Source of the DNA: Acidobacteriaceae bacterium
GTDB lineage: Bacteria; Acidobacteriota; Terriglobia; Terriglobales; Acidobacteriaceae
Direction: 5' to 3'
DNA: 32,076 bases
Assembly: GCA_013361705.1 (NCBI GenBank)
Contig: JABFXN010000341.1
Location: forward strand, 1-32,076
Both the position numbers and the translations under genes were made by a program. The notes below the pieces were generated by a model. It was not told where the DNA came from. It was given only the letters and a program-made list of their open reading frames with translations, and made no database searches. Every line of letters starts with the position of its first letter. Within the stretch, counting starts at the first letter, position 1. Positions 23,579-29,086 of this stretch are shown one piece after another.

Positions 23579-24160
23579 CTATTCGGTGGCCGCTTGCTGT
23601 CCGCGATGTGTCTCCAGCTTATGCCACTGATCGAGCGTGAGTTCGCGTCGGATGCCTAACAACATACGGGCGTTTGCCTTCTCCAGCTCGGCCCGGGCCT
23701 GCGCGACCCGGTCAATCTGAGACAGGATGCGGTTCTCATCGGGCTGCTCCGCCGAGACCAGAGGTCCCAGAGCGTCCTCTTCCTTCCGCAGCGAGCGGTA
23801 AAGGGTGGCCAGTGTGCCGCGATTGGCGTCCATAATCGCATCCATACGGGCCCGCTGTTCTTTTTGAATTCCGATCGACTCCGCAAACTTCTTATCGTCC
23901 CACCAGCGCCCTGGAGGACCTACCTGCAGACCTCCGTGCATCGTACTTATCGTTCCAGACGTGCTGCCGTTGTAAGGCGGAGGAGAATTACGCCGATCGG
24001 GAAAACCACCGCCGAAACCGCCGCCATTGCCCATCGGAGGCCGTCCGCCCATGCCACCGCCGCCGGGGCCGCCCGGCCGACCGGGGCCTTGCGCAAGAGC
24101 GGCCGAGCCACCAAGAAGGATGGCAAGCAGGGCCAAGGCGAGTTGGAATCGATACGTCAT
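23579..24160 (-). CDS. Spy/CpxP/ZraP-like periplasmic protein
   Basis: The 193-residue protein has a signal peptide (LALALLAILLGGSAALAQ) and a glycine/proline-rich segment (25-65). A helical domain follows with two L-x-x-Q type elements, IGIQKEQRARM (96-106) and LTLDQWHKL (174-182). The second fits the LTxxQ signature of Spy/CpxP/ZraP proteins, which act as periplasmic chaperones or stress-signal modulators. It lies 30 bp after the anti-sigma gene, making a sigma, anti-sigma and periplasmic sensor/chaperone set. The Gly-rich segment is an addition not seen in E. coli Spy. It may bind the anti-sigma factor or be a target gene of the sigma factor; both are inference. Confidence 0.8.
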   Translation of the reverse strand: MTYRFQLALALLAILLGGSAALAQGPGRPGGPGGGGMGGRPPMGNGGGFGGGFPDRRNSPPPYNGSTSGTISTMHGGLQVGPPGRWWDDKKFAESIGIQKEQRARMDAIMDANRGTLATLYRSLRKEEDALGPLVSAEQPDENRILSQIDRVAQARAELEKANARMLLGIRRELTLDQWHKLETHRGQQAATE

Positions 24161-24190
24161 TTGGCAAAGAAAAAAGAATAATAAAAGAGA

Positions 24191-24667
24191 TTAGCGCTTC
24201 GTTGTCCTGGCTTTGCCAGACTCGCTGGCAAAGGCCGCCTCGTGCTGGGCAGCGGGCTGCGCAATCTCCTGGTTGATAGCGGACATGAGTTCATTGTCTG
24301 CGGCAATCTGTTCCGCCGTAGGCACCGGTGACATATGTTGTACCGCCGCCTGCTGCGGTACATCGTTATCGCGGATCAGGAATGGCACGGCAACCGCAAT
24401 CGCAAGCACCGCGGCCATAGCCATACCCGCAGCCGGGCGGAAGGAAAGTCCCAGACGTTCGAAGAAGCCGGGCTGAGGCGTCGGCATTTCGGCCACGCGC
24501 TGGCGGCTCCAGTCCATGGATGCCTCGCGCAGCATGCCCATCGTCTCTTCTACCCGAGCCATCTCGTGACGGCAGTGTTCACACGAGTTCAGATGGGTTG
24601 CGGCAGTGCCGTCATCCAGTCCCAGCAGAAGATCGGTGAACTGTTCGTCTGTGAGGTGCTGGTTCAT
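24191..24667 (-). CDS. Anti-sigma factor with zinc-finger motif
   Basis: The 158-residue protein has the H-x3-C-x2-C motif (HLNSCEHC, about 25-32) in an N-terminal cytosolic domain. A single transmembrane segment (about 80-99, MAMAAVLAIAVAVPFLI) and a short periplasmic tail follow. It should sequester the ECF sigma factor encoded upstream, whose stop overlaps its ATG by four bases. The periplasmic part is only about 60 residues and Gln/Ala-rich, much smaller than in the 12136-12933 anti-sigma factor, so the two modules sense differently. Confidence 0.88.
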   Translation of the reverse strand: MNQHLTDEQFTDLLLGLDDGTAATHLNSCEHCRHEMARVEETMGMLREASMDWSRQRVAEMPTPQPGFFERLGLSFRPAAGMAMAAVLAIAVAVPFLIRDNDVPQQAAVQHMSPVPTAEQIAADNELMSAINQEIAQPAAQHEAAFASESGKARTTKR

Positions 24668-25428: not shown

Positions 25429-26445
25429 CTACAGCGTGCGCCCGACGATAGGGGCAAGCTGCTTGAGCTGGGCGTTCAGTTTCTTGAGCTGCTCCGGGAA
25501 CAGCGACTGGGCGCCATCGCTCATCGCCTTGTCCGGATTCGGGTGCATCTCCATCAGCAGACCGTCGGCCCCGGCAGCTACCGACGCCAGCGCCAGTGCC
25601 GGCACCAGGTCGCGCTTGCCGACACCATGCGATGGATCGCCGAAGACCGGCAGATGGGTCAGCTTCTTCAGCACCGGAATCGCCGAGATGTCCATGGTGT
25701 TGCGGGTATAGGTCTCGAAGGTACGGATACCGCGCTCGCACAGCATCAGGTCGTAGTTGCCGCCCGAGAGGATGTACTCGGCAGAGAGCAACACCTCTTC
25801 GATGGTGGCGGCGATACCGCGCTTCAGCAGGCATGCCTTGCGCACATGGCCAAGCTCTCGCAGCAGATTGAAGTTCTGCATATTGCGTGCGCCGATCTGA
25901 AAGACATCGATGTACGGCAGCATCGGCTCGATCTGCGAGATCTCCATCACCTCGGTGATCACCAGCAGGCCGTTCTTGTCCGCAGCTTCGCGCATGATCT
26001 TCAGCCCCTCGATGCCCATGCCTTGGAAGCTGTACGGCGAGCTACGCGGCTTGAACGCGCCACCACGCAGAAACTTGCAGCCGGACTCCGCCACCTGCTT
26101 TGCAGACAGATTGATCTGCTCCTTCGATTCCACGGAGCAGGGACCCGCCATCAGGACCACCTCTTCTCCGCCGACAACTACGCCGTTGGCGAACTTGATC
26201 TTCGTCCCTTCAGGACGGAAGTTGCGGCCGGCAAGCTTGTACGGCGAAGAGATGCGGTAGGCGTCCTGGACGCCCGGCAACACGGTGAACTCAGCCACAT
26301 CGAAAGCCTGGGGTGTGCCTACACCGGCGAGGATGGTCTGCGCCGCCCCGGTGGTGCGGTGGACGGCGAAACCAAGCTCCACCATGCGTTCGATGACTGA
26401 CTGGATATGTTCTTCGGCTGCTGCATCCTGCATTGCGACGATCAT
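25429..26445 (-). CDS. aroF: DAHP synthase, type I beta, with N-terminal regulatory domain
   Basis: The enzyme condenses phosphoenolpyruvate and erythrose-4-phosphate into DAHP, the entry step of the shikimate pathway. The barrel carries AGPCSVES (100-107, metal-ligand C103), FLRGGAFKPRSSPYSFQG (125-142), ITEVME, GARNMQNF, LLKRG and FGDPSHGVGKR. Residues 1-65 form a ferredoxin/ACT-like domain ahead of the barrel, as in Thermotoga-type DAHP synthases, where Tyr and Phe act as feedback inhibitors. Its 338 residues agree with that class. AAGGAAG precedes the ATG at 26443-26445. It is the last gene of the trpB-trpA-chorismate mutase operon, so a first-step enzyme shares control with branch enzymes. 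Confidence 0.93.
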   Translation of the reverse strand: MIVAMQDAAAEEHIQSVIERMVELGFAVHRTTGAAQTILAGVGTPQAFDVAEFTVLPGVQDAYRISSPYKLAGRNFRPEGTKIKFANGVVVGGEEVVLMAGPCSVESKEQINLSAKQVAESGCKFLRGGAFKPRSSPYSFQGMGIEGLKIMREAADKNGLLVITEVMEISQIEPMLPYIDVFQIGARNMQNFNLLRELGHVRKACLLKRGIAATIEEVLLSAEYILSGGNYDLMLCERGIRTFETYTRNTMDISAIPVLKKLTHLPVFGDPSHGVGKRDLVPALALASVAAGADGLLMEMHPNPDKAMSDGAQSLFPEQLKKLNAQLKQLAPIVGRTL

Positions 26446-26468: not shown

Positions 26469-26732
26469 CTAGTTGTCTTTCTTCTGGAGCGCTCGCATCA
26501 CGTCCACGATGCGCTCGTAAATCTTCTGAATCTCCGTGTCCGGCAACGGACCGGGATTACAACCCTTCACGTGATCAAAGACCTGTTGTTCGCGGCCCGG
26601 TTCGTATACGGGCATGGCCTGCTGCGCCTTTAACCGCCCGATGGCTTCTGCTGCTTCCGCCCTCTGACTGATAAGGCGAACAATCTGCTCGTCGAGCTCG
26701 TCAATGCGCTTGCGCCAGTCTGCTATTTCCAT
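26469..26732 (-). CDS. Chorismate mutase, AroQ class
   Basis: The all-helical protein of 87 residues matches AroQ-type chorismate mutases: WRKRIDELDEQIVRLISQRAEAAEAIGRLK at the start (Arg and Lys positions of helix 1) and EIQKIYERIVDVMRALQ at the end. It converts chorismate to prephenate, the common precursor of Phe and Tyr. There is no fused dehydratase or dehydrogenase, so it is a monofunctional form. AAGGAGAGG precedes the ATG. It lies 23 bp upstream of the DAHP synthase gene; some type I beta DAHP synthases act together with AroQ domains, so physical association is possible though unproven here. Confidence 0.92.
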   Translation of the reverse strand: MEIADWRKRIDELDEQIVRLISQRAEAAEAIGRLKAQQAMPVYEPGREQQVFDHVKGCNPGPLPDTEIQKIYERIVDVMRALQKKDN

Positions 26733-26776: not shown

Positions 26777-27538
26777 CTATCTGCGCAGTCCTCGAACAAA
26801 CTCCGCCACTGCCGCCGGCGCCTCCTGCGGCGTGGATTTCTCGATGATGGCTACAATCGCCGACCCGATGACCGCCGCATCGGCGTACTCGCCTACCGTC
26901 CGCACATGCTCCGCGTTCGAGACGCCAAAGCCCAGGGCAATCGGTTTGTCGGTGAACTGACGAATCCGTTGCACCAGCTTTGAGGCATCATCGGAAAGAG
27001 TGGACGAGACACCGGTAATCCCCGTACGCGAGATGGCATAGAGGAAGCCCTCGGTATGCTCCGCAATAGCCTTCAGGCGATCATCGGGCGAGGTTGGCGC
27101 CGCCAGGAAGACCGGCGCGAGGCCATGCTTCTTCATGGCAGCCATGTATTCGGAGGCTTCTTCGACAATCATGTCGGTCAGCAGCACTCCGTCCGCGCCC
27201 GCCGCCTTTGCCGCTACACAAAAGGGCTCCATCCCCATGCGAAGGACAGGATTCAGATAACTGAACAGGATCAGACCCCCCTTCGGACGCTCGGCACGAA
27301 TCGCTTTGCAGAGAGTGAGCACGTCCGTCAGGCGAACACCGCGTCCCACAGCACGCTCCATCGCGCGCTGAATCACCGGGCCATCGGCCAGCGGATCGCT
27401 GAAAGGAACACCAAGCTCCAGTACATCGGCACCGGCATCGATCGCCGCGATGGCGATCTGCTTGGTCGTCTCCAGGTCGGGGTCGCCTGCAGTGAGGTAG
27501 ATCACCAGACCCGGTTTCTTCGGAAATTGAATCGGCAT
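26777..27538 (-). CDS. trpA: Tryptophan synthase alpha chain
   Basis: The 253-residue TIM-barrel subunit cleaves indole-3-glycerol phosphate to indole and glyceraldehyde-3-phosphate. The catalytic Glu and Asp are E41 and D52 in VLELGVPFSDPLADGP. Further family marks are LTAGDPD, LLTDMIVEE, ISRTGITG and GFGVSNAEH. Its ATG overlaps the trpB stop (TAATG), with AAGGGAG in the end of trpB acting as ribosome binding site. It works in an alpha2-beta2 complex with the upstream gene product. Confidence 0.97.
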   Translation of the reverse strand: MPIQFPKKPGLVIYLTAGDPDLETTKQIAIAAIDAGADVLELGVPFSDPLADGPVIQRAMERAVGRGVRLTDVLTLCKAIRAERPKGGLILFSYLNPVLRMGMEPFCVAAKAAGADGVLLTDMIVEEASEYMAAMKKHGLAPVFLAAPTSPDDRLKAIAEHTEGFLYAISRTGITGVSSTLSDDASKLVQRIRQFTDKPIALGFGVSNAEHVRTVGEYADAAVIGSAIVAIIEKSTPQEAPAAVAEFVRGLRR

Positions 27539-28758
27539 TATGCTCCGGCTCCCTTCAGCTCCATCTCGCGGGCCAGGATGCCCATGTCCTTGTCGCCACG
27601 GCCGCTTACATTGACGAGGATCACATCCGTCTTCGCCAGCTTCGGCGCCTGCTTGATCGCCTCGGCCACAGCATGCGCCGACTCCAACGCCGGCAGAATG
27701 CCTTCGGTCCGTGACAGCACCTTCACCGCATCCAGAGCTTCGGTATCGGTCGCCGAGGTATAGGTGGCGCGGCCCTGGTCGTGCAGCATGGCATGCTCGG
27801 GACCTACCGACGCGTAATCCAGCCCCGCCGAGACCGAGTGTGTCGTCGCGACCTGCCCTGCATCGTTCTGCAGAACATAGCTGTACGTTCCCTGCAGCAC
27901 GCCCGGCAGACCGCCGGAGAAGCGCGCCGCATGCTCACCCAGCGCCGTGCCGCGTCCACCAGCTTCGACACCGATCAGCCTTACATTCGGTTCGGGAATG
28001 AACTCATAGAAGGCTCCGATGGCATTCGAGCCGCCGCCGACGCAGGCGATCACCGCATTAGGCAGCTTGCCCTCGTGCTCCAGAATCTGCTGCTTCGCCT
28101 CGCGCGAGATCACGCGATGGAAGTCGCGCACCATCGTCGGATACGGATGCGCACCGAGCGCGGAACCAAGAATGTAAAACGTCGTGCGCACGTTCGTGAC
28201 CCAGTCGCGCATCGCCTCATTGATGGCGTCCTTTAGCGTCGCCGAGCCGGCGCCGACCCCGCGTACCTCCGCACCAAGAAGGCGCATGCGATAGACGTTC
28301 AGCTCCTGGCGGCGCATATCTTCTTCGCCCATGTAGATCACACACTCCATGCCGAAGAGAGCGCAGACCGTCGCCGTCGCCACGCCATGCTGTCCGGCGC
28401 CGGTCTCGGCGATGATGCGCTGTTTACCCATGCGCCTGGCCAACAGTGCCTGACCGAGAGCGTTATTGATCTTGTGCGCTCCGGTATGCAGCAGGTCTTC
28501 GCGCTTGAGGTAGATCTTCGCTCCCCCCAGGCTCTCCGACAGGCGTTTGGCGAAATAGAGCGGTGTCGGCCGCCCGACATAGTCCTTCAGAAGAGCCGCG
28601 AGCTCGCCTTGAAAGGCCTGGTCTTCGCGGACAGCGGCATAGGCGCGTTCCAGCTCCTGCAGGGCGGCCATCAGCGTCTCTGGCACGTAACGGCCGCCAT
28701 AAGCGCCGAAGCGGCCATTGCCGAGGGTACGGACGGGGTCGATGATGCTGTGTTCCAT
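27538..28758 (-). CDS. trpB: Tryptophan synthase beta chain
   Basis: The 406-residue PLP enzyme joins indole (channelled from TrpA) with serine to give tryptophan. The PLP lysine is K96 in [10 protein letters not shown]. Other marks are [39 protein letters not shown] for the phosphate and [14 protein letters not shown]. The ATG at 28756-28758 was chosen because AAAAGGAC lies about 10 nt upstream. An in-frame ATG at 28782 falls inside the terminator T tract and is unlikely to be used. The operon contains only trpB and trpA of the trp genes, so trpEGDCF must lie elsewhere. Expression is probably gated by the attenuator at 28781-28936. Confidence 0.97.
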
Positions 28759-28780: not shown

Positions 28781-28936
28781 AAAAAACAAACGCCGCGACC
28801 CTTAGGGTTCGCGGCTTCGGTTGGTATCTCGTCGTGTACTGCTGGTAGTGCTAGTCGTTCGACGCTAAACCGCCGGAGCCGCTACTGTGTACCAGTAGCG
28901 GAAGGTAAAGCTGAAAAACTGGCGGGAATGCGTCAT
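28781..28936 (-). promoter_or_regulatory. Transcription attenuator of the aromatic amino acid operon
   Basis: Read on the minus strand after the leader start, four segments can be seen. Segment 1 is CCGCTACTG (28893-28901). Segment 2 starts CAGTAGCGG (28879-28887) and pairs with 1 over 9 bp around a 5-nt loop. Its continuation GCGGCTCCGG (28873-28882) can instead pair at 9 of 10 positions with CCGAAGCCGC (28811-28820), segment 3. Segment 3 also forms the left arm of a terminator, GCCGCGAACCC with GGGTCGCGGC (28792-28815), followed by GTTTGTTTTTT. The 1:2 and 3:4 hairpins exclude the 2:3 antiterminator. A ribosome stalled on aromatic codons would cover segment 1 and allow 2:3. One that reaches the UAG would cover segment 2 and allow termination. 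Confidence 0.8.
28865..28936 (-). CDS. Leader peptide rich in Phe, Tyr and Trp
   Basis: A 23-codon frame from ATG (28934-28936) to TAG (28865-28867) contains [11 protein letters not shown] at residues 6-16: four Phe, two Tyr and one Trp in ten consecutive codons. The Tyr-Trp-Tyr codons lie within hairpin segment 1 and its loop. The stop lies just after segment 2, as in attenuation leaders. An in-frame ATG exists at 28951, and neither start has a good Shine-Dalgarno sequence. A possible promoter (TTGCCT, 18 bp, TATGGT) would place the 5' end only a few bases before 28936, so the transcript may be nearly leaderless. Its function would be sensing charged tRNA-Phe, tRNA-Tyr and tRNA-Trp, not making a stable peptide. 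Confidence 0.75.
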
Positions 28937-29086
28937 TGCACTTTTGACCATACACGGATTTCGCCGGTTGAGGCAACCAATTGGCCGGAATCCCGGATTT
29001 TTCTTTTCCTCCACTGGCAAACACTTCCCTCCCCCGCCTCTCTAACACCTGATGCATGCGCCAACTGGGCGCAGAAGGAGGACGTC

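Follow-up and report, generated by a model that had tools for sequence, protein, structure and literature searches.

The window examined here, a 32,076-nucleotide stretch of an Acidobacteriaceae genome, carries on its minus strand what is very probably a ribosome-mediated transcription attenuator, one responding to the pooled supply of phenylalanine, tyrosine and tryptophan. We infer that all three amino acids act as inputs. An earlier note on this DNA had proposed a mixed Phe/Tyr/Trp attenuator ahead of trpB, trpA, chorismate mutase and DAHP synthase; that reading is largely supported by our analysis, which also widens it to a larger family of leaders. The leader frame, its pairings and their co-variation, the gene context and the codon bias were all computed from the DNA.

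The leader frame (28865-28936; this and all other parts of the element lie on the minus strand) has 23 codons and a stop and is conserved in relatives. Seven of ten consecutive codons at 28918-28889 are aromatic, as had been claimed, and no other ten-codon stretch in the six frames of the whole window has seven. We ruled out a chance origin of this frame, since an ATG frame 12-45 codons long never reached this count of aromatic codons in 20,000 dinucleotide shuffles of 28781-28951. Six aromatic codons in ten occur at just one other place in the window (24160-24195, minus strand, ANLFYYSFFFAK), directly upstream of a metal-resistance-domain frame (23579-24160) whose ATG they abut. The Tyr-Trp codons of the leader are spanned by a 9-bp hairpin, CCGCTACTG/CAGTAGCGG (28901-28879), whose inner helix, CCGCUACUG/CAGUAGCGG, covers the Tyr-Trp-Tyr codons; this hairpin, 1:2, is supported by folding and by covariation across 84 leaders. 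The stop codon (TAG, 28867-28865) lies 11 nt beyond its right arm. Region 2 (28860-28883) forms the left side of the antiterminator and region 3 (28810-28833), which overlaps the left arm of the terminator, its right side. Their duplex has a predicted energy of -27 kcal/mol, excludes both hairpins, and is also supported by the comparison of own and swapped partners described below. The intrinsic terminator (28781-28815) consists of a hairpin at 28815-28792 and a U-tract at 28791-28781, lies 23-57 nt upstream of the trpB ATG (28758), and is supported by its folding energy (-18.3 kcal/mol, z -4.2 against 200 shuffles) and by covariation. The earlier note had described the hairpin, the stop just past its right arm and the terminator where we find them, and had given the antiterminator as a pairing of 9 in 10 that proves to be longer.

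The operon order reported in that note agrees with the domain hits. The first regulated gene (27538-28758) encodes a PALP-domain protein that precedes trpA and that we take to be TrpB, partly from knowledge of the family. It is followed by trpA (26777-27538, Trp_syntA domain), a type II chorismate mutase (26469-26732, CM_2 domain) and, about 2.4 kb from the leader, a DAHP synthase with a ferredoxin-like domain (25429-26445, DAHP_synth_1 and DAHP_snth_FXD). Upstream of the leader is a promoter-like pair of hexamers, TTGCCT (-35; 28971-28976) and, after an 18-nt spacer, TATGGT (-10; 28947-28952), the latter 10 nt 5' of the leader ATG. A simple consensus scan of the window, stricter than this pair allows, listed neither a promoter nor a terminator at the leader, a result that counts against the element; in our reading it arises because the terminator stem is bulged and the hexamers match at 8 of 12 positions where 9 were required.

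DNA searches found the leader in 14 of 61 genomes, its own included, with 96% identity in a relative of the same genus. The window's own genome carries a second leader with 82% identity over the frame (positions 1-177 of contig C16), which is cut by the contig end. Its counterpart in relatives precedes a shikimate-kinase-like gene, which we label AroK on the strength of motif knowledge and for which homologues were found by BLAST. Elsewhere in this genome (contig C6, upstream of 11122, minus strand) a second DAHP synthase stands directly behind what appears by eye to be a serine tRNA gene, and no aromatic leader was seen upstream of it. The earlier note did not have this second leader copy, nor two features described below: a start that looks leaderless or nearly so, and how seldom Trp codons occur ahead of operons that begin with chorismate mutase.

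To follow the element further we built a covariance model, R1, from 18 leaders; its sequence ends at the terminator and the 2:3 pairing is not modelled. At E up to 0.01, R1 matched 86 of 200 genomes of the family, in 35 of 79 genera; at E up to 0.001 it matched 108 of the 399 class genomes, the window's own included. In the phylum 36 of 396 genomes were matched, 35 of which belong to the same family. A second model, R2, built from 84 leaders, matched 122 of the 399 class genomes and 42 of the 396 phylum genomes (E up to 1e-4); among the latter 42 were six from one family outside the class and one from another. A scan of a genome collection with the hairpin core returned 28 records; judged by title, 11 are acidobacterial, and Pontibacter and Dokdonia are among the remaining 17.

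We read 141 loci: 100 matches from the family, 40 from the class, and the window. For the family, 107 of 110 matches were taken (two copies from the window's own genome and one partial minus-strand match were set aside), and 100 of these were fetched, leaving out the 7 weakest. The class loci comprised, among the matches listed, 31 outside the family and 9 more inside it. The second copy in the window's genome is not among the 141. The first downstream gene was DAHP synthase at 47 loci, chorismate mutase at 33, trpB at 31 and aroK at 24, with six unresolved. Three of these six have prephenate dehydratase within 350 nt; the others are a chorismate-mutase-like frame identified by eye, a contig end and a false match. 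The match at locus L196 (E 3e-6) was rejected as false and is still counted within the 141. Among 15 later loci, 11 were chorismate-mutase-first by BLAST. The order chorismate mutase, prephenate dehydratase, DAHP synthase was found by BLAST in 16 operons, which hold the Phe branch. This aromatic context counts in favour of an attenuator, given that R1 was built from the leader only and yet 135 of 141 loci have one of the four aromatic genes as the first gene found. The check in relatives proposed in the earlier note has been run and the element withstood it, with aromatic genes downstream, aromatic frames kept, and conserved pairings that are described below.

The leader frame is rich in codons for the products of the operons it precedes. 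Of the 2253 codons at positions 2-17, 893 (39.6%) are aromatic, against 60 of the 1687 (3.6%) that follow; the two alternative frames give 100 and 285 of 2256 (4.4% and 12.6%). The excess arises in part by choice because the frame was picked for aromatic content. Both synonymous codons are used (TTT 311, TTC 167, TAC 214, TAT 83). Within codons 1-17, all 141 leaders have Phe and 137 have Tyr; these counts, the aromatic shares and the folding results keep close relatives in. An F-x-[YF]-R-Y-W core is common to many leaders, and the peptides otherwise vary widely; R1 matches are partly selected for the RYW core and the terminator, because nearly all leaders in R1 have RYW and the model includes the terminator. 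Codon choice tracks operon type. Trp occurs within codons 1-17 in all 31 trpB leaders, 22 of 24 aroK leaders and 37 of 47 DAHP synthase leaders, against 6 of 33 chorismate-mutase-first leaders (Fisher 1e-13 over loci; by genus-by-class groups, 32/38 versus 1/10, p 2.6e-5). The rule was weaker in the 15 later loci, where, read by eye, 4 of the 11 chorismate-mutase-first leaders had Trp within codons 1-17.

The mutually exclusive pairings 1:2, 2:3 and 3:4 are conserved in evolution. A terminator hairpin with a T-rich tail is present in all 141 leaders (median -19.6 kcal/mol), partly by construction because R1 includes the terminator. We compared each leader's own pairing partners with partners swapped between leaders, using the 137 of 141 leaders that have distinct peptides. 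For 2:3 the own partner was the better one in 132 of 137 leaders, with a mean gain of 7.2 kcal/mol (Wilcoxon p 7e-24); for 1:2 this held for 114 of 137. Neither null control gave such a preference: 1:3 favoured the own partner in 66 of 137 leaders and 1:linker in 67. Relatedness stays in this swap test, but swapped partners that come from close relatives set it a higher bar. In a model-fitted alignment of 84 leaders, 12 of 20 pairs in hairpin 1 and the terminator had altered at both positions (172 cells; shuffles gave 58.9). The initial 18-leader alignment had five such pairs in the terminator and none in hairpin 1, and the 7-pair core of 2:3, which is mostly invariant there, showed covariation not above shuffles.

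We also calculated how a ribosome on the leader would affect folding, at equilibrium only, with an assumed footprint of 12 nt and with the start codon counted as codon 0. Before region 4 is made, predicted 2:3 pairing averages 0.65-0.70 with the ribosome at codons 10-14, drops below 0.3 once codon 20 is reached, and amounts to 0.04 for a ribosome on the stop codon. By the kind of codon at which the ribosome stalls, the means are 0.57 for Phe, 0.60 for Tyr, 0.52 for Trp and 0.36 for others. In this model the control codons are sited such that region 2 would be freed by stalling and covered once the ribosome sits on the stop codon. Two results weigh against the attenuator reading. Stalls at codons 2-9 are likewise predicted to give antitermination (0.58-0.61), and specificity would therefore rest only on where the aromatic codons are placed. 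Ribosome-free RNA has a mean 2:3 pairing of 0.49, about half, and termination on an untranslated leader would thus hinge on folding kinetics.

The 137 leaders further suggest that these frames may be leaderless or nearly so. A -10-like hexamer, sought in a band 5-14 nt before the ATG, was found in 102 of 137 leaders, 9-12 nt before the ATG in 82, and a promoter score of at least 8/12 was reached by 38% of leaders compared with 4.8% of base shuffles. An SD-like tetramer was seen in 8 of 137, a count made without a control. Position profiles put the strongest promoter signal in the trpB and aroK leaders; that of the DAHP synthase group is weak. The predicted start of the transcript would lie at, or a few nucleotides from, the AUG.

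From these elements we infer transcription start, stalling, termination and a response to each amino acid, in the following way. Transcription would begin at, or slightly upstream of, the AUG of a leader frame that lacks a Shine-Dalgarno site, and a ribosome would trail the polymerase along the leader. Were charged tRNA for Phe, Tyr or Trp to run short, the ribosome would stall at codons 7-16 and cover the left arm of hairpin 1:2; region 2 (GCGGCUC...) could then pair with region 3 (...GAAGCCGC), the terminator would be blocked and the operon transcribed. With all three plentiful the ribosome would reach the stop, region 2 would be covered or hairpin 1:2 would re-form and, with region 2 so occupied, terminator 3:4 would form and end transcription. 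In the window's genus the two copies would act on trpBA-chorismate mutase-DAHP synthase and on aroK. Other genera carry the element ahead of DAHP synthase on its own, or ahead of chorismate mutase-(prephenate dehydratase)-DAHP synthase, where the leaders mostly lack Trp codons.

Several other explanations of the same leader have to be weighed. It may be a true attenuator in which one or two amino acids are effective and the rest are carried along, a possibility to which we give some weight while thinking it unlikely. The aroR leader of Corynebacterium glutamicum offers a precedent, since according to the excerpted review it has Phe-Tyr-Phe, yet transcription rises on Phe limitation and Tyr availability is without effect (PMC11802643), and in the window's leader the last Tyr (codon 16) and the early Phe codons (7 and 8) have a lower predicted effect (0.34 and 0.43). 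Idle Trp codons are, however, awkward to reconcile with the presence of Trp in every trpB leader and its absence from 27 of 33 chorismate-mutase-first leaders, and the near-universal Phe and Tyr (141 and 137 of 141 leaders, within codons 1-17) likewise speak against passengers. It is improbable that the released leader RNA or peptide acts in trans as well, in the manner of rnTrpL and peTrpL of Sinorhizobium meliloti; what suggests it is the predicted start at or near the AUG, the same layout as that described for S. meliloti trpL in the portion of the source available (PMC7298713).

We regard as highly improbable a sensing arrest peptide of the TnaC kind, which would stall on binding a free aromatic amino acid or chorismate rather than on a shortage of charged tRNA. 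The F-x-[YF]-R-Y-W core that recurs in many leaders could be read as its signature, but apart from their aromatic share the peptides vary widely, the conserved VAA.A after the core coincides with hairpin letters (GUAGCGGC), and an arrest caused by plenty would turn biosynthetic genes on when they are unneeded. There is scarcely any probability, in our judgement, that only the terminator matters, with the short frame a by-product and control lying elsewhere, in a repressor or in enzyme feedback. The consensus scan does list no promoter at the leader, and a survey of four genomes over some 0.9 kb ahead of trpE and of the second DAHP synthase turned up no aromatic leader, so that other controls do exist; against this stand the conserved frame, the matched 2:3 partners and the aromatic gene context. 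The attenuator responsive to charged-tRNA supply is the reading that we retain.

R1 found no match in 114 of the 200 family genomes. Complete genomes of the family that have DAHP synthase but no model match are G026, G028, G030, G031, G061, G067, G085, G090, G107 and G111. Ten complete family genomes without a model match, chosen from those listed, contributed 18 DAHP synthase loci, and within 1.2 kb upstream of these there was no short ATG or GTG frame with at least 6 aromatic codons in 12. This search and that over 0.9 kb are blind to leaders that head longer operons. Some genera may have lost the element, replaced it or moved it.

Taken more broadly, the attenuator may be one member of an RNA regulon of the Acidobacteriota, a proposal to which we give roughly even chances. 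A single attenuator design without a ribosome-binding site would be set by its codons: Phe, Tyr and Trp as an OR-input for DAHP synthase, aroK and trpBA, mostly Phe and Tyr for chorismate mutase-prephenate dehydratase, and possibly Cys before cysteine synthase, with a shortage of any one amino acid sufficient for release. Locus L238 (G882:C10:230915-231100, minus strand) has a like-designed leader, MTRKLYYCHYWCACTFASP..., with Cys at codons 8, 12 and 14, and precedes frames that by eye resemble cysteine synthase and then cystathionine gamma-synthase; it comes from one of the six genomes noted above for a family outside the class and is perhaps a cysteine attenuator built on the same plan. Locus L241 (G656:C1:1725204-1725368) comes from a different acidobacterial family, in a genome of 2.3 Mb; its leader, MNTGRQYFYFYYFYLK, is very short and stands before DAHP synthase and a frame that by eye is EPSP-synthase-like, with apparently two hairpins in tandem.

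If this is right, a single RNA design, with no regulatory protein, would link the aromatic pathway at its entry, in its middle and at its branches to the three end products. The natural codon variants before different operons offer a ready test of whether control codons match products, and the same set also probes how leaderless leader frames are coupled to transcription. Predicted acidobacterial attenuators were almost all without an associated function in what we saw of a 2010 paper (PMC2965389), and the present element would supply a likely one for this phylum.

None of 4227 Rfam families, Trp_leader included, matched the window's leader (E up to 5) or nine relatives, and with no covariance-model match we ruled out an element known to Rfam; the T-box riboswitch likewise had no Rfam match in the window's leader or the nine relatives. 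The earlier note knew of no described three-amino-acid aromatic attenuator in Acidobacteriota, and this held in our search, in which no aromatic attenuator from the phylum appeared among the matches listed from open-access full-text literature, subscription papers lying outside it. Among the closest known systems, the enteric trp, pheA and pheST leaders have control codons, exclusive 1:2, 2:3 and 3:4 pairings and an intrinsic terminator, but answer to one amino acid each where three are proposed here. Several amino acids do feed one attenuator in the ilvGMEDA and thr leaders of enterobacteria, where they are the branched-chain amino acids or Thr and Ile rather than aromatic ones. Attenuation of trp, pheA and pheST is covered in the excerpted review (PMC11802643). 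The same excerpt describes the C. glutamicum aroR leader, which stands before the aroF (DAHP synthase) operon (Neshat et al. 2014, via review PMC11802643) and, compared by description only, resembles our element in the ribosome-mediated attenuation of a DAHP synthase operon through aromatic codons. It differs in its Phe-Tyr-Phe codons and response to Phe, in its phylum, and in that the excerpt mentions neither Trp codons nor a family across trpB, aroK and chorismate mutase operons. In S. meliloti the small RNA rnTrpL starts with the AUG of trpL, so that transcript 5' end and leader AUG coincide, a likeness that is only predicted here; that leader, as described in the portion seen, has Trp codons and stands before trpE(G) (PMC7298713). 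The uORFC-13-1 motif shares an upstream frame and a terminator before aroF/DAHP synthase but differs, in the part of its description available, in having at least one Phe codon noted, a ribosome-binding site, and an occurrence in Acholeplasma and unassigned environmental sequences (PMC8632094). Trp-type leaders have been described in Shewanella, with aroF and aroH named as candidates, in the text seen (PMC2659441; cf. PMC1262725), and another partly available source lists leader genes in Acidobacteria among other phyla, with no aromatic attenuator mentioned in that part (PMC4833913). The proposed mechanism is classical ribosome-mediated attenuation, of a known kind. What is new, as far as our literature searches show, is the proposed input from three amino acids, the spread over four kinds of operon, the rule on codons and the occurrence in this phylum.
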